The position numbers were made by a program, and so were the translations under genes. Source: Comamonadaceae bacterium (GTDB taxonomy: Bacteria; Pseudomonadota; Gammaproteobacteria; Burkholderiales; Burkholderiaceae_C). Taken from it: 48,141 nucleotides of DNA. Location: contig VIKI01000018.1 of the NCBI GenBank assembly GCA_008080595.1, positions 1-48,141 of the forward strand, in the 5' to 3' direction. The notes below the pieces were generated by a model. It did not search any database and was not told the origin of the DNA. It saw only the letters and a list, made by a program, of their open reading frames with translations. This document shows, piece by piece, positions 2,247 through 12,776 of this stretch; position 1 is the stretch's first letter; the number at the start of each line of letters is the position of its first letter.

Positions 2247-3071
2247 ATGATCAAATCCCAAGACAAGTTGGCACCGATTTTCAGATCACTGCATCCCGAC
2301 GAATCCGTGATGACCAAGGCGGTCAGCGCCAGCGCACAAGAAGCTGCCGAGAAATGGCCTTTGTTCAGAGTCTTGGCACCCAGAAAAACCATGAGCACAC
2401 CGGCTTTGTCTGAAGTTGACAAGCAAAACCGGCTGAGCCCCCATTCTGAACGCTTGATGCCCCAGCCATCAACCCTGGCTGTCGTCAGCCTGGGTGAGAA
2501 GCTGGCTGATGGACTGACCAAAATGACTGGTCGCAATAAACCGCTGAACCGCCAGCCCAAACGGGCAGCCCAAGTCGCCGAACAAGCCACCACAGCACAG
2601 GCCAAGCCAAGCGCCAAACCGACCACGCCTGAGCGGCATGCGCAGCAGGTTAGCGAGAAGCTCGCGGCATCATTGTCTGAATTCGCAAATGAACACAAAG
2701 CCCAGCCAGCCCCAGTCACCGAGACACCTGCAGTTTTGGCAGCGGCACATGGCCCTACGGCCAGCGTGACGCCTTCAAGAGCGGTTCTTCCTCCACAAGC
2801 CACCAGAAAATCGCCTGCACCGACCAAAGCCCCCAAAGAAGCTGTCAGTGAACCAGTCCTCCACAAAGCGCCCGTTCAACCAATTGCCGCTGCGCACAAA
2901 ACACCCGAGCCAGCAGCCCCGATCCAACAACCGCAAACGACAGGTTCGATCAAATCCTTGTTCAACAAACTTCAAAATCCGGTCAATGCATCCCCCCTAC
3001 CCGAAGCAGCGACTGAGGCCACAGCCACAGTTAAAGCCCCGGCTTTTTTAAATCGGTTGTTTAAAAAATGA
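2247..3071 (+). CDS. BcsP-like proline/alanine-rich cellulose biosynthesis protein
   Basis: The product has about 274 residues and is mostly low complexity, rich in Pro, Ala, Lys and Thr. It has short conserved-looking ends: a segment with EKWPLFRVLAP near residues 35-45, SIKSLFNKL, and a C-terminal FLNRLFKK. BcsP proteins of type I bcs operons are accessory proteins of this kind, with a short N-terminal helix, a variable Pro-rich middle and LF-R-L motifs. The ATG at 2247 is the first ATG after the bcsD stop; a TTG at 2217 would overlap bcsD. The last codons overlap the start of bcsQ in an ATGA. Its function is inferred from position and composition. Confidence 0.55.
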   Translation: MIKSQDKLAPIFRSLHPDESVMTKAVSASAQEAAEKWPLFRVLAPRKTMSTPALSEVDKQNRLSPHSERLMPQPSTLAVVSLGEKLADGLTKMTGRNKPLNRQPKRAAQVAEQATTAQAKPSAKPTTPERHAQQVSEKLAASLSEFANEHKAQPAPVTETPAVLAAAHGPTASVTPSRAVLPPQATRKSPAPTKAPKEAVSEPVLHKAPVQPIAAAHKTPEPAAPIQQPQTTGSIKSLFNKLQNPVNASPLPEAATEATATVKAPAFLNRLFKK

Positions 3072-3832
3072 GTGTCATTGGTGTCGTTTCTATGAAGGGT
3101 GGAGTGGGCAAAACATCCACCACCGCCAACCTTGCCGCCGCCCTGGGTAGCCAGTTGGGTGATGAACGGGTGTACACGGTGGACCTAGACCCGCAAAATG
3201 CGTTGCACTGGCACTTTGGCTTGTTTGATCAAGTTGACTCCGGCGTGTGTGAAATGTCTTTGCAAGGGGACAACTGGCGCCAAGCCATGCTCAAGAGCGA
3301 CTACAACCTGCGCTGCCTGCCTTACGGGAACGTTACGGAATCCAATCGGGAAGCCTTTGAAGACCTGTTAAGCCAATCGAATCACTGGGTGGCCGACCAG
3401 CTCCAGGTCGCCAAACTGACAGGCGACCTGATGGTCGTCATCGATTCACCACCCGGGCCCTCGGTTTACCTGAAACAGGTATGCGAGTGTGCGGATTTGC
3501 TTCTGATTGTGCTGCTGGCAGATGCCGGGTCCTACGCCACCATTCCAGAAATGGAAACATGGCTTGATGAGTACACCACCAAAAGACCCGATTTGAAGGT
3601 GTATTACGTCCTGAATCAGATCGACCGCAGCGAAGCACTCAACCGCGATACCGCCGCTTTTTTGCATCGCCAACTCAAACCACGACTCTGCCCTATTGAC
3701 CTTCATAATGACGAAGCCGTTGCTGAAGCCCTGGCTTTTCAGCAACCCGTTGTCAGCTATGAGCCCAACAGTCAAGCCAGCCATGATTTCGCCCGCTTGG
3801 CCAAGTGGGCCATCAGTACGCTGAACAAATGA
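3068..3832 (+). CDS. bcsQ: BcsQ, MinD/ParA-like ATPase of cellulose biosynthesis (first copy)
   Basis: The 254-residue protein is a deviant Walker A P-loop ATPase with KGGVGKTS at about residues 10-17, VDLDPQNAL near 38-46 and DSPPGPS near 124-130. The late motif NDEAVAEALAFQQPVVSYEP corresponds to the HRDEAMAECLAAKQPV region of E. coli BcsQ. BcsQ proteins bind the inner membrane with BcsR and are needed for polar localisation and assembly of the cellulose synthase. The gene is joined to both neighbours by ATGA overlaps (start 3068, stop 3832), pointing to translational coupling. A second bcsQ lies downstream at 8266. Confidence 0.85.
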   Translation: MSVIGVVSMKGGVGKTSTTANLAAALGSQLGDERVYTVDLDPQNALHWHFGLFDQVDSGVCEMSLQGDNWRQAMLKSDYNLRCLPYGNVTESNREAFEDLLSQSNHWVADQLQVAKLTGDLMVVIDSPPGPSVYLKQVCECADLLLIVLLADAGSYATIPEMETWLDEYTTKRPDLKVYYVLNQIDRSEALNRDTAAFLHRQLKPRLCPIDLHNDEAVAEALAFQQPVVSYEPNSQASHDFARLAKWAISTLNK

Positions 3833-5934
3833 CACCGCTGCGGCTACTCTCACTTTGGCGTGAACGCTGGGGCAAGGAACTTCCTGAAAATCGGATGCAC
3901 CCTTATCAAAAGGGCGGTTTCGGCGCTTGGGGAGAGCGCACCAGTGAATCCATTGCAGGCTCCATACCTGTCCTGGGTTTGTTCGCAGTCATGTCGTTTG
4001 CTATTCTGAGCTTGATTTTGCTTGGTGTGACGTTTTCCTTGACCGACCAGTACGTGCTGTCGGCATTTGTATTGATCGCCACCCTTTCGATCAGACGCTA
4101 CCAGGGCATGATCCCTACCCTGGTGTTAATGGGTTTCGCCATTATCACCACCACACGCTACCTTTACTGGCGTTTTGATAGCACCTTGGATCCAGCGTTT
4201 CAACTGGATTTTTTCATTGCTTTATTGGTATGGTTTATCGAACTGTATGGGGTTTGTCTTTTTTCAGTGGTCGTACTCAATGGCCTATGGCCGATCAAGC
4301 AAATAACCAAGTCGCTACCAGAAGATACGGCAACTTGGCCTAAAGTCGCAGTATTTATCTGTGCTGCCGACCATTCTGAAGATGACATCCTGCGCAGTTT
4401 GTCTGCACTGAAGCTCACTGACTGGCCATTGACCAAACTGAGCCTGACCGTGGTGGACAACGAAGAGCGTGTTGGCCTGCTGCACAAGCTGACAGCCATG
4501 AATGTCAGTTATTTGCCACCGCCCATCACTGCTGACGAAAAATTTACCCAGAGGCTAAACCGGGCCATGACCGATGCCGACTCTGAATTGGCCGTTATTT
4601 TGAGCGCAGGCCAAATGCCTGCACCCGATTTTTTAAAAGAAAGCTCGGGATGGTTTGTCGTAGATAGCAGCTTGGGTCTGGTTGCTACTCCAAATCATTT
4701 TTTGCTTCCTGAACCAAATTCTCAATTGCTTGATCGACTTGCGGGACAACCGCATCCTGCAGAAGTCATGATCACTCGTGTTTCCCATTTTTTGAAAGTA
4801 GGTGGTGTTCCGATTGATGCCATGTCGGCTCAAAACCATATTGCCCAAAAACTGCACAATTTTGGATTTGGGCATGCGTATTGGCTTCAAGACGTAGAGA
4901 CGGCTTATCGGATTCACCAACCTCTTGCCAGAAAAGCCTTGGGGCTGAGAATGTGGGTTGCGCGTGCATGCGAAGTTTTGGACTTTTACCAACCCATTTT
5001 GCGGTATACGCTACTCACACTACCATTGCTTTATTTGCTGGCAGATTGGCAACCCATGGATGCCCCCCTTGAGCTGTGGATCGCCTATGCCACCCCCCAT
5101 TTGGTTCAGGCCTATGCATTATTCAGCCGTACCAATTCAGCCTTTCGTTGGCCACTCTGGCTGGAGCTGCGTGAAGGCATATTTGCCACCTACATGCTGA
5201 TTCTGACTTTCTTCACCGCTGTCTGGACTTGGCTTCGCAACCGGAAATCGCCCTATGCCGATACCCTATCATCGAGTGAACTCAAAGAGCTTCGTTTAAG
5301 CCGACTCGATGGCTTGCTGCTCGGGCTTCATGGCATGGCGCTGGCCGAAGGCTTGCTCATGCTGCTGCAAGCCGATCAGGCCCTACTGCCGAGCATCAGC
5401 TTCTACATGGCATGGTCAGGCATTGTGCTGTTGTTGCTGGTTGCCAAATTTGCCGTCTACCAAGAAGCTGCCGAAGTGGCCCGGCAAAAAGCGCGGCTGA
5501 GCGCGATGCCGGGAATGATCCGCTTACCCAACAACCGCACCATGACGTGCCAGACCCAAAACTTTCCACAACTTGAACTGGTGTTAGATTGTTCGACAAC
5601 ACCAAGTGTGAAGAGCGGTCAACGCCTCAAGCTGTCGATTTTTCACGCCCTGGATGAACTTGCCGTGGATGTCACAGTCGTCCTGAGCGCAGCCACTTCC
5701 TTGACGGTCAAGGTAGACCCCGCTTGGCAAGGGCCCTACCGCCGGTTCAGCCAGGCCGTGTTTGCGCGTGGCCCCGATTGGCCAGACTGGTTACCCAACC
5801 AACATGTCGACAAGATCATTCCGCAATGGCTGGTTCTTGTGTGTTCCTGGCCCTTGAACTTAGTGGCCAAATGGTTGCACCGGTTATCCAAAAAACCAAG
5901 CACACAGGCTGTCAGCAGCCCTCCCACGAAATGA
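3829..5934 (+). CDS. BcsA-like membrane protein with degenerate glycosyltransferase and PilZ regions
   Basis: The 701-residue protein has the BcsA plan: four N-terminal membrane segments (about residues 43-66, 72-88, 94-110, 125-150) with the family motif RYLYWR at 110-115, a cytoplasmic region of about 155-380, then four to five membrane segments and a C-terminal soluble part. Motifs needed for catalysis are not recognisable. DDG reads VDN at 209-211, the DxD site reads LSAGQM near 259, the FFCGS block is absent, TED is replaced by SAQ near 333, and QxxRW is not found. In the PilZ part the RxxxR arginine pair and the glycine of DxSxxG are lost (RLSAM, DCSTTP). The gene starts in an ATGA overlap with bcsQ. 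It is probably a non-catalytic paralogue retained as a partner of BcsB. Confidence 0.75.
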   Translation: MTPLRLLSLWRERWGKELPENRMHPYQKGGFGAWGERTSESIAGSIPVLGLFAVMSFAILSLILLGVTFSLTDQYVLSAFVLIATLSIRRYQGMIPTLVLMGFAIITTTRYLYWRFDSTLDPAFQLDFFIALLVWFIELYGVCLFSVVVLNGLWPIKQITKSLPEDTATWPKVAVFICAADHSEDDILRSLSALKLTDWPLTKLSLTVVDNEERVGLLHKLTAMNVSYLPPPITADEKFTQRLNRAMTDADSELAVILSAGQMPAPDFLKESSGWFVVDSSLGLVATPNHFLLPEPNSQLLDRLAGQPHPAEVMITRVSHFLKVGGVPIDAMSAQNHIAQKLHNFGFGHAYWLQDVETAYRIHQPLARKALGLRMWVARACEVLDFYQPILRYTLLTLPLLYLLADWQPMDAPLELWIAYATPHLVQAYALFSRTNSAFRWPLWLELREGIFATYMLILTFFTAVWTWLRNRKSPYADTLSSSELKELRLSRLDGLLLGLHGMALAEGLLMLLQADQALLPSISFYMAWSGIVLLLLVAKFAVYQEAAEVARQKARLSAMPGMIRLPNNRTMTCQTQNFPQLELVLDCSTTPSVKSGQRLKLSIFHALDELAVDVTVVLSAATSLTVKVDPAWQGPYRRFSQAVFARGPDWPDWLPNQHVDKIIPQWLVLVCSWPLNLVAKWLHRLSKKPSTQAVSSPPTK

Positions 5935-8246
5935 AAGTACCCAACATGACATCACCATTTGAAATTTCTCCAGTCCGTCAACTCACTCTTGGATTTACCG
6001 CGCTGGCCGTGGCAATTTCGTGCTCACTTTTCAGCTCACCGGTGATGGCCAAGGCCAAAACCAGCAAGTCAAAGGCAGTCATCGAAGAGGTGATTGAGAC
6101 TAGCCCTGCAACCGCACCCAAACAAAGAGTGGTCTCTCTGAGTTTCAAACAACTGGGTGCTTGGTCTGCCGTTAACCTGAAAGGGGCTGACGGATCGAGA
6201 ACGCTGAATTTTTCTGTCAGATCCGATGAAATGGTGGTGGGTGCCAAGCTGAAGTTGCTATACGACTATTCACCCGCATTGATCCCTGAATTGAGCCACT
6301 TAAGAATTCTCCTCAATGAACGTGTAGCTGCGGTAGAAGGCTTGCCCCAAGGCAAAAACCTGGGTAATTCACGTGAGATTGATCTTGATCCCCGGCAAAT
6401 GACCGATGTGAATTTTTTACGTTTTAATCTGATTGGTCATTACACCCGCCAATGCGAGGATCCATTCCATTCGTCGCTATGGCTCACCTTGAGTGACCTG
6501 GGCCGTCTGGAACTGACGCTGGCCCCCAAATCAATGGTCAATGACCTGAAGTTCCTACCTGCCCCATTTTTCGACAAACGTGACGATGCCACGTTGAAAT
6601 TGCCCTTTGTCTTTTCCAACACGCCAACGGCTGGCACCGTCAAGGCGGCAGGTATTGTGGCTTCATGGTTCAGCATTCAAGCCGGCAATCGAGGTGCACA
6701 GTTTCCAGTGTCCCAAAATACCCTGCCTGATGGCAATGCCGTGGTTTTTCTTCAAGGCAGTGAAAAAATCCCTGGTGTTGAAAGCCCAACCGGCCCGACC
6801 CTGAGTATCAGCAACCATCCGACCAACCCGTTGGCCAAGTTGCTGGTGGTCACCGGCAGCAATGACGACGAAATCTTGCGCTCGGCACGTGCCCTTGCCT
6901 TGATCAGCAGCACCCTGGCAGGGCCATCGTTGACCATCACCAAAGAAACTGAAACCACCCCACGCAAGCCCTACGATGCCCCCGCTTGGATACCCTCGGA
7001 TCGTCCGGTGCGTTTTGGTGAAATTGCCCGCCCGGAAGAGCTCCGTGCTCAGGGTTGGTATCCAGAAATTATTCGAGTCAATTACCGCGTGTCGCCCGAC
7101 ATTTTCACGTGGAGAACACCTGGGGTGCCGCTGAACCTGAAATACCGGTATACCCGCCTGCCTGAACACAAGGCATCCAGCCTGAATGTCGGTCTGAACA
7201 ATGACTTTATCCATGCCTTACCGCTGAATTACCCCTACAAAAACCCCGATGAAATCAACCGGCTCAATCTTGCTGGCAGTAACAATGTCTCCAAGCGATC
7301 TGATTTGTTGTTTATTCCACCCTATGCGGTTGGTGGTCGTGACCAATTGCAACTGGGCTACTACTTTGACATTTTGAAACACGGCGAATGTCAAAACATG
7401 CCACCCGAGAATTTGGTGGGAGCGATTGACCCTGAATCCACTCTGGATTTCAGCGCTTTCCCACACTATGTGGCACTGCCCAATCTGGCTTATTTTTCCA
7501 ATATTGGATTTCCCTTCACCCGTTTGGCTGACCTGTCAGAAACTGCAGTGGTTATGCCAGACCGCCCTAACAGCCATGAACTTGGCATGTACCTGACCTT
7601 GATGGGGCGCATGGGCGAAGCCACTGGCTACCCGGTCTTGAACCATGCGCTGACCACCGCTGCGGATATTGAAAAAATGGCGGATCGGGATGTCCTGGTG
7701 ATTGGTTCTGCCAACAGCCAACCGCTCCTGAGCAAATGGGCTGACAAATTGCCAGTGGTGCAAATCAATGGCGAACGACATGTCCGTGAGCCAGAGGTCA
7801 CATGGAAACCCATCTACCGCTGGGAACAACAAGACAATCAATTTACCCCCTTGCCCAAAGGCGATTTGAATTTATCCAACAGTGGTGACCTTACCACCCT
7901 GATGGCCTTTGAGTCCCCCATGAAAGCTCAACGCAGTGTGGTCATGGTTCACTCAGACCGCTCTCCTGATTTGCAAAAAATCACGGATGTACTGACCAAC
8001 ATCGAACGCATCAGCACCATCAAAGGTGATTTGGTGGTATTTAATGAGAAAGACGTCAACCACACCAAAGTCAGTGCGACTTACTATGTGGGGGCTTTGC
8101 CATTCATGAACAAATTGCAATGGCTGTTTGCAGATCATCCTCTCTGGGTGGGGGGGCTCGTCGTGCTCGTTTGCTTGCTATTGGCTGTTTCTGCTTACCG
8201 CCCCTTGCGCAAGTTGCTCAGCCGTCCGGCCAAAGTGAAACTCTAA
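5931..8246 (+). CDS. bcsB: BcsB, periplasmic/membrane-anchored cellulose synthase subunit
   Basis: The 771-residue product has an N-terminal hydrophobic export segment (about residues 15-40), a long periplasmic region and one C-terminal membrane helix (HPLWVGGLVVLVCLLLAVS) followed by a short basic tail, the standard BcsB topology. Family-like segments include the jelly-roll regions, NHPTNPLAKLLVVTGSNDDEI and the DRDVLVIGS region. BcsB contacts BcsA through its tail anchor and guides the emerging glucan through the periplasm. The start at 5931 forms an ATGA overlap with the bcsA-like stop; an ATG at 5946 is also possible. In contrast to its BcsA-like partner it looks intact. Confidence 0.85.
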   Translation: MKVPNMTSPFEISPVRQLTLGFTALAVAISCSLFSSPVMAKAKTSKSKAVIEEVIETSPATAPKQRVVSLSFKQLGAWSAVNLKGADGSRTLNFSVRSDEMVVGAKLKLLYDYSPALIPELSHLRILLNERVAAVEGLPQGKNLGNSREIDLDPRQMTDVNFLRFNLIGHYTRQCEDPFHSSLWLTLSDLGRLELTLAPKSMVNDLKFLPAPFFDKRDDATLKLPFVFSNTPTAGTVKAAGIVASWFSIQAGNRGAQFPVSQNTLPDGNAVVFLQGSEKIPGVESPTGPTLSISNHPTNPLAKLLVVTGSNDDEILRSARALALISSTLAGPSLTITKETETTPRKPYDAPAWIPSDRPVRFGEIARPEELRAQGWYPEIIRVNYRVSPDIFTWRTPGVPLNLKYRYTRLPEHKASSLNVGLNNDFIHALPLNYPYKNPDEINRLNLAGSNNVSKRSDLLFIPPYAVGGRDQLQLGYYFDILKHGECQNMPPENLVGAIDPESTLDFSAFPHYVALPNLAYFSNIGFPFTRLADLSETAVVMPDRPNSHELGMYLTLMGRMGEATGYPVLNHALTTAADIEKMADRDVLVIGSANSQPLLSKWADKLPVVQINGERHVREPEVTWKPIYRWEQQDNQFTPLPKGDLNLSNSGDLTTLMAFESPMKAQRSVVMVHSDRSPDLQKITDVLTNIERISTIKGDLVVFNEKDVNHTKVSATYYVGALPFMNKLQWLFADHPLWVGGLVVLVCLLLAVSAYRPLRKLLSRPAKVKL

Positions 8247-8265: not shown

Positions 8266-9015
8266 ATGCATGTCATTGCTTTCATTTCCGGCAAGGGTGG
8301 TGTGGGTAAAACCACCATGGCAGCCAACGTGGCGGTGGCGCTGGCCCAACGTCAAAAACGTGTTTTATTGATTGATCTGGATCCGCAAAATGCCCAGCGT
8401 TTTCATTTGGGAATGGATCCAGAGGAAATCGCAGGCTTGGTGCGCGAAGGCATCAAACTCACCTCGATCTTTGAGAGCCCTTTTGGTGTCAGCTTCATCC
8501 CGTTTGGGCGCGTCAGCGAACCTGAGCTGGAAGAGTTCGAGTCACAGCTTAAATTCAATCCGCATTGGCTGGATCAAGGCCTGCGCTCACTCGGCGCGGA
8601 TATTTTTGACTATGTGGTGCTTGACACACCACCGGGGCCGTCGGTTTTTTTGCGCCAAGCACTTGAAGCCGCCAACAAAGCCATGGTGGTGTTGCTGGCG
8701 GATGCCGCATCGTTTGCCACCATTGACAAGATATCCTCACTGGTTGAGCAATACACCGCTGATCGCAGTGACTTTGCTGGCGCGTACCTGTTGATCAATC
8801 AAATGCCGCTCAATGGCAAATTGGGGCATCAAGTCCGAACAGCGTTGTACGCCAACTATGCAGACCATCTGGTGCCCGCCTCGGTTCACCGCGATGCACG
8901 GGTCTCACAGGCACTGGCCTTTGAGCGACCGGTACTCCAGTACGAGCCCGGCTGCAAAGCCAGCCTAGACATCCAATATGTAGCCGAATGGCTACTCAAC
9001 AGCACCGAGACATGA
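8266..9015 (+). CDS. Second BcsQ-type MinD/ParA ATPase
   Basis: The 249-residue protein carries a deviant Walker A (SGKGGVGKTT at about 8-17), LIDLDPQNAQ, DTPPGPS and the BcsQ-like late motif HRDARVSQALAFERPVLQYEP. It is clearly related to the first BcsQ of the operon but diverged along its length. The ATG at 8266 is preferred to an upstream in-frame TTG at 8248. Its stop overlaps the GH18 start in an ATGA. Two BcsQ-like ATPases could form a heterodimer or serve two membrane partners; this is inference. Confidence 0.75.
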   Translation: MHVIAFISGKGGVGKTTMAANVAVALAQRQKRVLLIDLDPQNAQRFHLGMDPEEIAGLVREGIKLTSIFESPFGVSFIPFGRVSEPELEEFESQLKFNPHWLDQGLRSLGADIFDYVVLDTPPGPSVFLRQALEAANKAMVVLLADAASFATIDKISSLVEQYTADRSDFAGAYLLINQMPLNGKLGHQVRTALYANYADHLVPASVHRDARVSQALAFERPVLQYEPGCKASLDIQYVAEWLLNSTET

Positions 9016-10127
9016 TCCCACGCGGGTGGCGGATTTTCCTGGTTTTTTGTCTGATGGCATGGAACCTATCGCCCGCCACCGCCCAACCCCTGAAGGCCAT
9101 GGGCTATCTGGCTTGGTGGATGCCACAGAGTTGGCAAACCCTGCCGCTGCAAGAGATTGATCGGCTCTTTTTCTTTGAACTCAAAGTCGACGCATCAGGT
9201 GCCATTTCAGAGCGCCATGGCTGGCCAGAACAATGGGGTGAACTGCAACAGGCCACCCAAAGGGAAAAAGTTCCCCTGGATTTGACCCTGACGTTGTTCG
9301 ATTCTGAAACCTTCAATCGGCTCTTCTCATCCCCACAAGCCGTCAACAAGCTGCTGACAGACAGCCTTGAATTGGCCGCGCATCCGAATGTGAGCGGCTT
9401 GCATCTGGATTTTGAAATTTATGGCGGCGCATCCAGCAAGGCCATCACCAGCTACAAGGCATTTTTGGCCCAACTCTCACAACAGCTGCGTCGGCTGTCG
9501 CCCTCGCGAAATTTGTCGGTTTTTCTTCCGGTACAAACGGATGATGCACTCTACGATGCACCTAGCCTGGGTTTGATGGATTGGGTGGTCTCGCAAAGTT
9601 ACGACGCGCATTACCGCAGCAGCAAAAATGCGGGGCCTGTGGCACCTTTGGCCGGACAAGACGGGCTCACGTGGGAAAAAGCAATGTCTGATGCGCTGGG
9701 ACTGGGCGTACCCAGGAACCGCCTGATTTTGACTTTCCCCTTGTATGGATACGAATGGATTGTGAAAGACAAGCAAGCCCGCAGCCCGACTCAGCAACCT
9801 GGGCTCACCACCACTTTTTCAGACGTGGACAAAGAATTCTTGCCCGATGTTCAAATCAGCATCACCCAACGGGTTCGGCAATTTGGCGCAACCCATGACC
9901 CCTCCAGCGGATCGTCTTACTATCAATTTCAAAACGAACAAGGCCAACAAGTGCAGGGATGGTTTGAAGACTGGTGGTCTCTGAGCCGAAAAATTGATTT
10001 TGTCAAAGCAGAAAAGCTCGGCGGACTCGCCTTTTTTGTTTTTGGCTATGACAAAGAGCAACTTCTCGGATATTACTTGTATCAAAAGAGACCGAAAAGC
10101 CTGATTGATTTGATCAATCTGCAATAA
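9012..10127 (+). CDS. Exported GH18-family glycoside hydrolase in the bcs-like operon
   Basis: The 371-residue product starts with a Sec signal peptide ending near ATAQ (residues 22-25). Residues 128-135 read SGLHLDFE, which aligns with the GH18 consensus DGxDxDxE. The catalytic Glu (E135) and the preceding Asp (D133) are kept, while the first two Asp are Ser and His. SQSYD near 194-198 resembles the MxYD motif, and GGLAFFVFGYD near 337-346 resembles the last barrel strand. GH18 enzymes cleave beta-1,4-linked GlcNAc polymers or related glycans. Cellulose operons usually encode a GH8 endoglucanase (BcsZ), so a GH18 here suggests a polymer other than plain cellulose. The start at 9012 gives an ATGA overlap with the upstream gene. 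Confidence 0.75.
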   Translation: MIPRGWRIFLVFCLMAWNLSPATAQPLKAMGYLAWWMPQSWQTLPLQEIDRLFFFELKVDASGAISERHGWPEQWGELQQATQREKVPLDLTLTLFDSETFNRLFSSPQAVNKLLTDSLELAAHPNVSGLHLDFEIYGGASSKAITSYKAFLAQLSQQLRRLSPSRNLSVFLPVQTDDALYDAPSLGLMDWVVSQSYDAHYRSSKNAGPVAPLAGQDGLTWEKAMSDALGLGVPRNRLILTFPLYGYEWIVKDKQARSPTQQPGLTTTFSDVDKEFLPDVQISITQRVRQFGATHDPSSGSSYYQFQNEQGQQVQGWFEDWWSLSRKIDFVKAEKLGGLAFFVFGYDKEQLLGYYLYQKRPKSLIDLINLQ

Positions 10128-10154: not shown

Positions 10155-10182
10155 CCGGCTTCTGTGCAGCAATGCACGCCGG
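10155..10182 (+). terminator. Possible hairpin after the bcs-like operon
   Basis: CCGGC at 10155-10159 pairs with GCCGG at 10178-10182, and inside it GTGC pairs with GCAC around the loop AGCAAT, with a four-base bulge on the left side. It lies 27 bp after the GH18 stop and 50 bp before the next start. No T-run follows, so it is not a classical intrinsic terminator. Confidence 0.3.
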
Positions 10183-10232
10183 AAGTAAACACATTCAGGC
10201 ATGATAGAGGCCTAGATTTACAAGGAGTGCGG

Positions 10233-12776
10233 GTGTATTCATCTATTTCCTTGCCCCCCTCTGAGGGGCAAACGAACTCTCTGAGCTTGCTGCCCAAAGA
10301 CGCGCAACATCAAAGTCAAGTCAAGAGCTTCAGTTGGCCTGCGCCGCCGTACGCCATTTACACCGCGGCGGAACCTTGGGTTGAGCCACAAATATGTGAA
10401 TTGGAGGGCTTGAATGGGGCCATTCGACGCTGCACCCTGGTGTCCGTCACACCTGCCGAGCAAACCATCCTGATTCAGATTGAACACAGCAAAACGCCGG
10501 TTCCGGTAACTTTTTCGCAGTTCCGCCGTCTGGCGCTGAAAAAACCGATTTATCCACAGGAAATCATCAGCACCGAGCAATTTGCAGACATTTTGGGTTA
10601 CCGCGCCACCGTGCAATACAACCTGGTGCTGGAAAACGGCAACACCGTCACCGGTACGACGGTAGGTTATGTCGAAACCCATTTCGGCTTGTTTTTGTTC
10701 ACCCCACTGGATGACCATGGCTCGGTTGAACGGGTGTTTGTGCCGCGCGAAGCCTTCACCCGCGTCACTCTGGGTGACCACATTGGCCAGATGCTGGTGG
10801 AGCAAAAAGTCGTCACCCCGCAGCAGGTTGAAGATGCCGCCACCGAGCAGAACAGTTTGCGCAAACGCAAGCTAGGCGACTATTTGGTGGACAACGCCGT
10901 GGTGTCACCTGACCAATTGATGCTGGCACTGGATCAGCAATCCAAAATGCCGATGATCCGAGTGGGTGAAGCCTTGACCCGATTGGGCTACATCGACGAT
11001 GACCAACTCGCACAAGCACTAGCCAAACAAAAAACCGAGCGCTCGGTGCCGCTGGGCCAATTGCTGGTGAATATGGGCTTTCTGACCCGTGCTGACCTGA
11101 ACACCGCGCTGGCCCGCAAGATGGGCTACCCCGTAGTGGATGTCACCCAGTTCCCGATTGATGAAGCAGCCTTGAAGAAGGTGTCTGCCAACATGGCGCA
11201 ACGCCTCAATATCATGCCACTGCTGTGGCGCGACAAGTTGCTGGTGATTGCTGCGGTTGACCCGACCCAACGCAAGATGCTCGAAGAGCTTGAGTTCTCA
11301 GTGCAAGGGCGGGTGATCGCCACCCTGGGGGATGAAGTACAAATCACCCAGGCGATCAAAAATGCTTATGAAAAAATGGGGGTACTTGCATGGCCCTCAG
11401 AAGAAGACTTGCTCACCCCTGCCTCTGATGGTCAACACCAGGCCAGTGGCACTCAATTGCTGGAATCGATGCAGCTGCAAGATGTCGGCCTGGAAGAAGA
11501 GCTCGATGATGGCCAGCAAATTGCCCAATCCGACAACACCTTGGTACGCCTGATCAACACCATGATCATTGAGGCCCACGCCCGTGGGGTGTCAGACATT
11601 CATGTCGAGTCCCAACCCAAACGCGCAAAAGTGCGCATCCGTTTTCGCAAAGACGGCCTGCTCTCGCCCTACCTGGAACTGCCTCACACCTACCGCGCCG
11701 CCTTGGTGGCACGCCTGAAAATCATGGCCGATCTGGACATCTCGGAGCGGCGCAAGCCACAAGATGGCAAGATTGATTTCAGCAAGTTTTCCCAACGTCA
11801 CCGGCTGGAGTTGCGCATTGCCACCATCCCCACGGCCAATGGGCTGGAAGACGTGGTGATGCGCCTGCTGGCCTCCAGCAAGCCCATTGCGATAGAAAAG
11901 CTCGGACTCTCGGCAGACAATCTGGAGCAACTGACCCAGTCGGTCAGTCGCCCCTACGGCATGGTGCTGTGTGTGGGCCCCACCGGCTCTGGAAAAACCA
12001 CCACGCTGCACTCGGTGCTGGGTTTTCTGAACACCCCCGAGCGCAAAATCTGGACGGCTGAAGACCCGATTGAAATCACCCAGCCTGATTTGCGCCAGGT
12101 GCAGGTCAACCCCAAAATTGACTGGACTTTTGCCAAAGCGCTGCGCTCATTTTTGCGCGCCGACCCCGACATCATCATGGTCGGTGAAATCCGTGATGCC
12201 GAAACCGCCCAGATCGCCATCGAAGCCTCACTGACCGGGCATCTGGTGCTGTCAACCTTGCACACCAACAGCGCGGCGGAAACCGTCACCCGCCTGGTTG
12301 ACATGGGCATGGATCCGTTCAACTTTGCCGACTCCTTGCTGGCGGTGCTGGCCCAACGTTTGGCGCGGCGCTTTTGCAACGAATGCCGAACCGTGCAGCC
12401 CGCCTCAGAGGAAACCATTGACGAATGGGTCTCCGACTATCTGCACTCTTTTCCTGAGAGTTGGCGGCCTACCCGCGACGATGTGCTGGCGCAATGGATG
12501 GCGCAATACGGCCAAAAAGGCTGGCTCAGCCACCACCAGGCCCCCGGCTGCAGCCAATGCCTGGGCACCGGCATGTCGGGCCGCGTGGGCCTGCATGAGC
12601 TGCTGCGCATCACGCCGGAAATCCGCCGCCTGATCCAAACCGGGGCCCGGTCTGAAGAAATCCAGCATGCCGCTTTTCACACCGGCTTGTTTCGCACCCT
12701 GCGCCAGGACGGCATCACCAAAGTGCTGGCCGGCCTGACCAGCATTGAAGAAATTCGAGCCAACAGCAATGTCTGA
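10233..12776 (+). CDS. PilB/GspE-family secretion ATPase with MshEN-like N-terminal repeats
   Basis: The 847-residue protein is a type II secretion/type IV pilus assembly ATPase. It has Walker A GPTGSGKTT, the Asp-box/Walker B region DPDIIMVGEIRDAET, the His-box LSTLHTNSA, and a Cys4 zinc knuckle (CNEC and CSQC, separated by an unusually long insert). Before the ATPase core are four repeats of the xLGxxLVxxxxx-L-Q type at about residues 182-206, 212-236, 243-267 and 273-297, resembling MshEN modules that in MshE bind cyclic di-GMP. The first 150 residues are not recognised. The GTG at 10233 is chosen because AAGGAG lies five bases upstream. No pilin or PilC gene is nearby; the neighbour is the bcs-like operon. 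Confidence 0.85.
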   Translation: MYSSISLPPSEGQTNSLSLLPKDAQHQSQVKSFSWPAPPYAIYTAAEPWVEPQICELEGLNGAIRRCTLVSVTPAEQTILIQIEHSKTPVPVTFSQFRRLALKKPIYPQEIISTEQFADILGYRATVQYNLVLENGNTVTGTTVGYVETHFGLFLFTPLDDHGSVERVFVPREAFTRVTLGDHIGQMLVEQKVVTPQQVEDAATEQNSLRKRKLGDYLVDNAVVSPDQLMLALDQQSKMPMIRVGEALTRLGYIDDDQLAQALAKQKTERSVPLGQLLVNMGFLTRADLNTALARKMGYPVVDVTQFPIDEAALKKVSANMAQRLNIMPLLWRDKLLVIAAVDPTQRKMLEELEFSVQGRVIATLGDEVQITQAIKNAYEKMGVLAWPSEEDLLTPASDGQHQASGTQLLESMQLQDVGLEEELDDGQQIAQSDNTLVRLINTMIIEAHARGVSDIHVESQPKRAKVRIRFRKDGLLSPYLELPHTYRAALVARLKIMADLDISERRKPQDGKIDFSKFSQRHRLELRIATIPTANGLEDVVMRLLASSKPIAIEKLGLSADNLEQLTQSVSRPYGMVLCVGPTGSGKTTTLHSVLGFLNTPERKIWTAEDPIEITQPDLRQVQVNPKIDWTFAKALRSFLRADPDIIMVGEIRDAETAQIAIEASLTGHLVLSTLHTNSAAETVTRLVDMGMDPFNFADSLLAVLAQRLARRFCNECRTVQPASEETIDEWVSDYLHSFPESWRPTRDDVLAQWMAQYGQKGWLSHHQAPGCSQCLGTGMSGRVGLHELLRITPEIRRLIQTGARSEEIQHAAFHTGLFRTLRQDGITKVLAGLTSIEEIRANSNV

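Follow-up and report, generated by a model that had tools for sequence, protein, structure and literature searches.

The window, a 48,141-nucleotide stretch of a Comamonadaceae genome assembly, carries on its forward strand an operon in the order bcsD-P-Q-A-B-Q, with a gene for a family GH18 glycoside hydrolase in last place. The first gene is bcsD-like (1763-2236; PF03500, E=6.3e-17) and is followed by a weakly assigned bcsP-like gene (2247-3071, in a reading frame open from a TTG at 2217), which matches the BcsP model NF040718 at E=0.046 only; the assignment is supported by its place in the operon, which homologues also occupy in related loci. A first bcsQ (3068-3832; TIGR03371, E=9.9e-67) precedes a full-length bcsA homologue (3829-5934, frame open from a GTG at 3805), here called pseudo-bcsA, and this is followed by a well-conserved bcsB (5931-8246; PF03170, E=6.7e-212, 705 bits), a second bcsQ (8266-9015; TIGR03371, E=6.8e-54) and the GH18 gene (9012-10127). 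The Walker A motif KGGVGKT is intact in both BcsQ proteins. ATGA-type overlaps join bcsP to bcsQ, bcsQ to pseudo-bcsA, pseudo-bcsA to bcsB and the second bcsQ to the GH18 gene, the last at 9012-9015, where the start of the GH18 gene overlaps the bcsQ stop. A gene for a PilB/GspE-like ATPase with an MshEN domain and an MshE-related c-di-GMP motif lies 37 bp beyond the GH18 gene (10164-12776, forward strand); it adjoins the GH18 gene also in G122, a complete genome congeneric with the host of the window, and not in more distant loci, and is probably a separate transcription unit.

The GH18 gene encodes 371 amino acids without an internal stop and is the single GH18 gene of the host's own assembly. 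The protein matches PF00704 (E=1.3e-25, 91.2 bits against a Pfam cut-off of 29.6), its AlphaFold2 model is a TIM barrel (pLDDT 88.6), and the best PDB folds are the GH18 proteins 4wiw and SleL (4s3j/4s3k), with a TM-score of ∼0.7. The N-terminus resembles a signal peptide (MIPRGWRIFLVFCLMAWNLSPATA, then QP), as judged by inspection alone. The motif corresponding to DxxDxDxE reads S-G-L-H-L-D133-F-E135, retaining the third Asp and the Glu, while the first two Asp are replaced by Ser and His; Tyr197-Asp198 of β-6 is also retained. The initial annotation had described a signal peptide-bearing GH18 enzyme with the catalytic Glu and Asp kept and the first two motif Asp lost, tied to the end of a bcs-type operon by an ATGA overlap, and this description is borne out by the family match, fold, motif alignment and gene arrangement, with the signal peptide likely.

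The catalytic Glu is invariant in ten GH18 homologues, and the Asp-x-Glu pair is present in 10/10 of those linked to exopolysaccharide (EPS) genes, which cluster together in a tree with moderate support (88/96). The first two Asp positions vary also in SleL and YdhD, so the Ser and His are not decisive; since SleL itself carries His at the second position, the missing Asp residues are weak evidence against catalysis. The usual β-8 Trp of the -1 subsite is Phe (F342 in the window protein) in 10/10 aligned EPS-linked sequences, which suggests an altered specificity and is a possible mark of this set. A scan of IMG/VR with the GH18 protein found no relatives. Homologues from Rhodothermales and Bacteroidota (L024, L025) were rejected as a guide to function, their neighbourhoods being unrelated. 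The Bacteroidota locus holds two tandem GH18 homologues (L025:8766-11029) outside any exopolysaccharide cluster, the second with its catalytic-motif Asp replaced by Asn.

The label of a bcs-type operon given by the initial annotation is correct, but it left unremarked that no catalytic motif survives in the operon's bcsA. Most of the window protein can be aligned with E. coli BcsA (6e-46), and a Pfam search of it returned neither a GT2 nor a PilZ match. In an alignment with four intact BcsA proteins, none of DDG, DxD, TED and QxxRW is complete: DDG is replaced by VDN, DxD by SAG and TED by SAQ, a gap falls at QxxRW, and the PilZ motif DxSxxG is lost to NFPQLE. Motif loss of the same kind is found in seven BcsA homologues from other genomes, with TED, QxxRW and DxSxxG gone in 8/8 when the window protein is included; the least decayed, from G202, has DD and DxD present and TED and QxxRW lost. 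Seven of the eight are full length and form a single clade (100/100); the G084 copy is truncated where its contig ends. The eight BcsB partners likewise form one clade (99/96). Reading frames are open in all the homologues and gene order is conserved. Between the window and G122, pseudo-bcsA has a dN/dS of 0.21 (NG86) to 0.33 (YN00) and bcsB one of 0.06-0.08; identity is 65% for pseudo-BcsA and 77-90% for BcsD, BcsQ, BcsB and GH18. The AlphaFold model of pseudo-BcsA is weak (pLDDT 53, five sequences), with a GT-A-like core and a C-terminal barrel at ∼70-85. Judged by its motifs, the window BcsA is a dead glycosyltransferase, and the substitution pattern indicates that it is a retained pseudo-enzyme under purifying selection, not a fresh pseudogene.

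Other cellulose genes were sought in the host's own assembly, which is 89% complete, and in relatives. No intact BcsA was found in this assembly, and no BcsC exporter in it or in the complete G122 genome, which agrees on the absence of both. The initial annotation had proposed looking for BcsZ elsewhere in the genome, and no GH8, for this operon or otherwise, was found in the 89% complete assembly; G122 has one weaker, unlinked GH8. Among 11 genomes, GH8 at BcsZ strength is confined to the four with intact BcsA. Despite the excellent scores of its BcsB, BcsD and BcsQ, the window operon almost certainly makes no cellulose. In G131, a BcsC-like TPR fragment of 287 amino acids (L073:754-1617) lies between bcsB and the second bcsQ, and short TPR-type genes occupy the equivalent place in L018 and L022; these are possibly bcsC remnants.

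A second locus, on contig C140 of the same genome (G000:C140), encodes BcsE (PF10995, 6.6e-77), an outer-membrane barrel assigned by inspection and position and lacking a Pfam match, a GT2 glycosyltransferase of 451 amino acids, and a CE4 deacetylase. On the opposite strand are a second deacetylase-like gene and an AlgX-like gene, and the G122 version of the cluster includes AlgF and AlgX-like genes. The GT2 catalytic motifs are invariant in ten genomes, the CE4 residues of the deacetylase are intact in nine, and the RxxD site of BcsE is present in 8/9. The best NCBIfam match of the GT2 is PgaC (TIGR03937), at 224 bits against a cut-off of 422, followed by NodC (∼113 bits) among others, and its PDB matches include hyaluronan synthase. 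Because the score is well below the PgaC cut-off, the sugar and linkage of the product are uncertain. The second deacetylase-like protein (L015:4116-6170), beside its intact paralogue, seems to have lost its CE4 motifs and looks degenerate, a putative second pseudo-enzyme in the system.

The two loci are joined in other bacteria. A single contig of G203, and likewise of G204, carries three blocks next to one another: the pseudo-BcsA/GH18 operon, MBOAT and AlgJ-like genes, and the BcsE-barrel-GT2-deacetylase cluster. In G013 and G206, the GH18 gene adjoins the GT2 cluster, bcsA and bcsB are not beside it, and pseudo-BcsA is lacking. The GH18 gene of Gallionella (G205) lies downstream of an intact bcsD-P-Q-A-B-Z-C-x-Q2 operon with its own GH8 BcsZ and adjoins the GT2 cluster. 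G202 possesses two separate bcs operons, one intact and including BcsZ, the other with pseudo-BcsA and GH18. These arrangements show the GH18 gene to track a different polymerase. Among 201 genomes of the family, GH18 (E below 1e-90) is present in four and the GT2 in five, the four lying wholly within the five; a plain hypergeometric calculation in which kinship is disregarded, 5/C(201,4), puts the probability of this overlap at ∼8e-8. In a sample of 399 genomes of the order, strong GH18 and GT2 matches fall in the same two. In none of the ∼600 genomes sampled was this GH18 clade present in the absence of the GT2. G131 has the pseudo-BcsA operon and the GT2, with GH18 not found; in G201, GH18 is present and the GT2 was not found, possibly owing to assembly gaps. 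From linkage and co-occurrence we infer a physical coupling of the GT2 to BcsB and pseudo-BcsA.

On balance we favor the view that the window operon and the C140 locus together make up one exopolysaccharide system with its origin in cellulose secretion, in which a Bcs scaffold has been re-assigned to the GT2 and GH18 trims an amino-sugar polymer. Since the GH18 gene travels with the intact GT2 and the deacetylase, export of such a polymer, not of cellulose, is probable, and the suggestion in the initial annotation that the polymer may contain amino sugars is the best reading of this company of a PgaC/NodC-like GT2 and a deacetylase. The GT2 would polymerize an N-acetylhexosamine, most likely β-linked GlcNAc; pseudo-BcsA, BcsB, BcsD, BcsQ and BcsE would act as the export scaffold, with c-di-GMP sensing shifted to BcsE, where the RxxD site is retained; and the deacetylase would strip part of the N-acetyl groups. 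GH18 enzymes employ the N-acetyl group of the substrate itself in catalysis, and the residues needed for this (D133, E135 and Y197) are all present in the window protein. It may thus act in the periplasm on polymer that is newly made or has stalled, cutting where residues retain the N-acetyl group, a role for its own polymer analogous to those of BcsZ, AlgL and the PgaB hydrolase domain. As polymerase and N-deacetylase share the system, the likeliest substrate of GH18 is an N-acetylhexosamine polymer that has been deacetylated in part. We infer substrate and linkage from sequence, β-1,4 being favored by the GH18 family and β-1,6 by the similarity to PgaC. A fuller account is offered more tentatively, as a possible and still somewhat doubtful course of events: the synthase of a Bcs machine might have been inactivated once, retained as a scaffold or channel, and newly joined to a PgaC/NodC-like GT2 of another clade to give a chitin- or chitosan-like exopolysaccharide, with c-di-GMP control through BcsE and its own GH18 editor.

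The main rival, which we regard as unlikely, is that GH18 is a peptidoglycan hydrolase that makes way through the cell wall for an export machine spanning the envelope. SleL, YaaH and YdhD, GH18 enzymes of the spore wall, are among its closest solved structures in both sequence and fold, and trans-envelope machines often bring along lysins. Nevertheless, the gene follows the amino-sugar-type GT2 and the deacetylase, and is absent in G131 although the machinery remains there. Known synthase-dependent EPS systems, moreover, pair the synthase with a hydrolase for its own polymer (BcsZ, PMC5070118; PgaB, PMC5933820). An improbable alternative is that the bcs genes are a remnant in decay and GH18 is simply carried along, the GT2 cluster being self-sufficient. 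The faster divergence of pseudo-BcsA than of its neighbors, the graded motif loss, and the GT2 clusters that do without pseudo-BcsA in G013 and G206 would fit such decay, but the open frames in every homologue, the dN/dS values (0.21-0.33 for pseudo-BcsA, 0.06-0.08 for BcsB), and the membership of pseudo-BcsA in a single old clade whose gene order is conserved are at odds with it.

It is more improbable still that GH18 is a non-catalytic, lectin-like polymer binder, an alternative raised by the initial annotation from the two missing Asp and to which the Phe found throughout the EPS-linked set in place of the β-8 Trp could be added. That case is weakened by the invariant Glu, by the Asp-x-Glu pair in all ten EPS-linked homologues, and by SleL, which has the same His. 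Least credible, and very unlikely, is the initial annotation's view that GH18 stands in the place of BcsZ within a working cellulose operon. Although the gene closes a bcs-type operon and GH8 was not found in the assembly, BcsA is dead and BcsC is missing, GH18 is found next to the GT2 without bcsA or bcsB in G013 and G206, and, because the Gallionella gene lies downstream of an intact bcsABZC that already includes a GH8 BcsZ, it is no simple BcsZ replacement.

BcsA counts as the defining bcs enzyme, and the label 'cellulose' is often given from annotation of bcsA and bcsB. A natural pseudo-synthase offers an opening onto non-catalytic roles of BcsA and BcsB, and an undescribed amino-sugar matrix polymer is predicted for Rhodoferax-like and Gallionella-like bacteria. 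A literature search, with most subscription journals outside its scope, found no inactive BcsA, no GH18-bcs operon, and no conserved pseudo-BcsA operon partnered with another GT2. The iron-stalk sfz cluster and the Leptothrix sheath genes were considered as candidates, and the available portions of their reports (PMC8250860; PMC13386937) describe no matching gene set.

Compared with Bcs systems containing BcsD, BcsQ and BcsE, such as that of E. coli (PMC5727187, PMC7439463), the present one is alike in BcsB, BcsD, the two BcsQ, the RxxD of BcsE and the operon layout, but differs in its dead BcsA, the lack of BcsC and BcsZ, the second locus with another GT2, and a GH18 instead of a GH8 enzyme. 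It shares with the Pga system for PNAG, in which PgaB combines a deacetylase with a GH153 hydrolase domain (PMC5933820), the conjunction of a PgaC-like GT2, a deacetylase and a hydrolase, whereas its GT2 scores below the PgaC cut-off, its hydrolase is a separate GH18, its scaffold is Bcs-derived, and O-acetylation genes are present. The SleL/YaaH/YdhD-type enzymes (4s3j, 4s3k, 3cz8) are the best matches of the window GH18 in sequence and fold and share its catalytic Asp-x-Glu, and SleL also shares the His at the second Asp; unlike them, the window protein has no LysM, bears a signal peptide, has an EPS neighborhood, and carries Phe for the β-8 Trp. The clostridial cellulose synthase with CcsZ (PMC7710045) is likewise a synthase-dependent operon with a dedicated hydrolase, although there the product is that of a cellulose synthase and here BcsA is inactive. 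CcsZ thereby sets a precedent for the exchange of hydrolases between operons, and a dedicated hydrolase that departs from that of E. coli is no novelty by itself. Of the published parallels found, the nearest is provided by the sfz/sfb stalk clusters of Fe-oxidizing bacteria, which, in the available part of their description (PMC8250860), combine a BcsB-like Sfz1 with a non-BcsA GT2, Sfz2, and a predicted glycoside hydrolase; the sfz GT2 has an EpsE-like domain and the hydrolase is annotated as GH10, and that part describes neither a deacetylase nor a pseudo-BcsA, both of which accompany the GT2 in the system proposed here.
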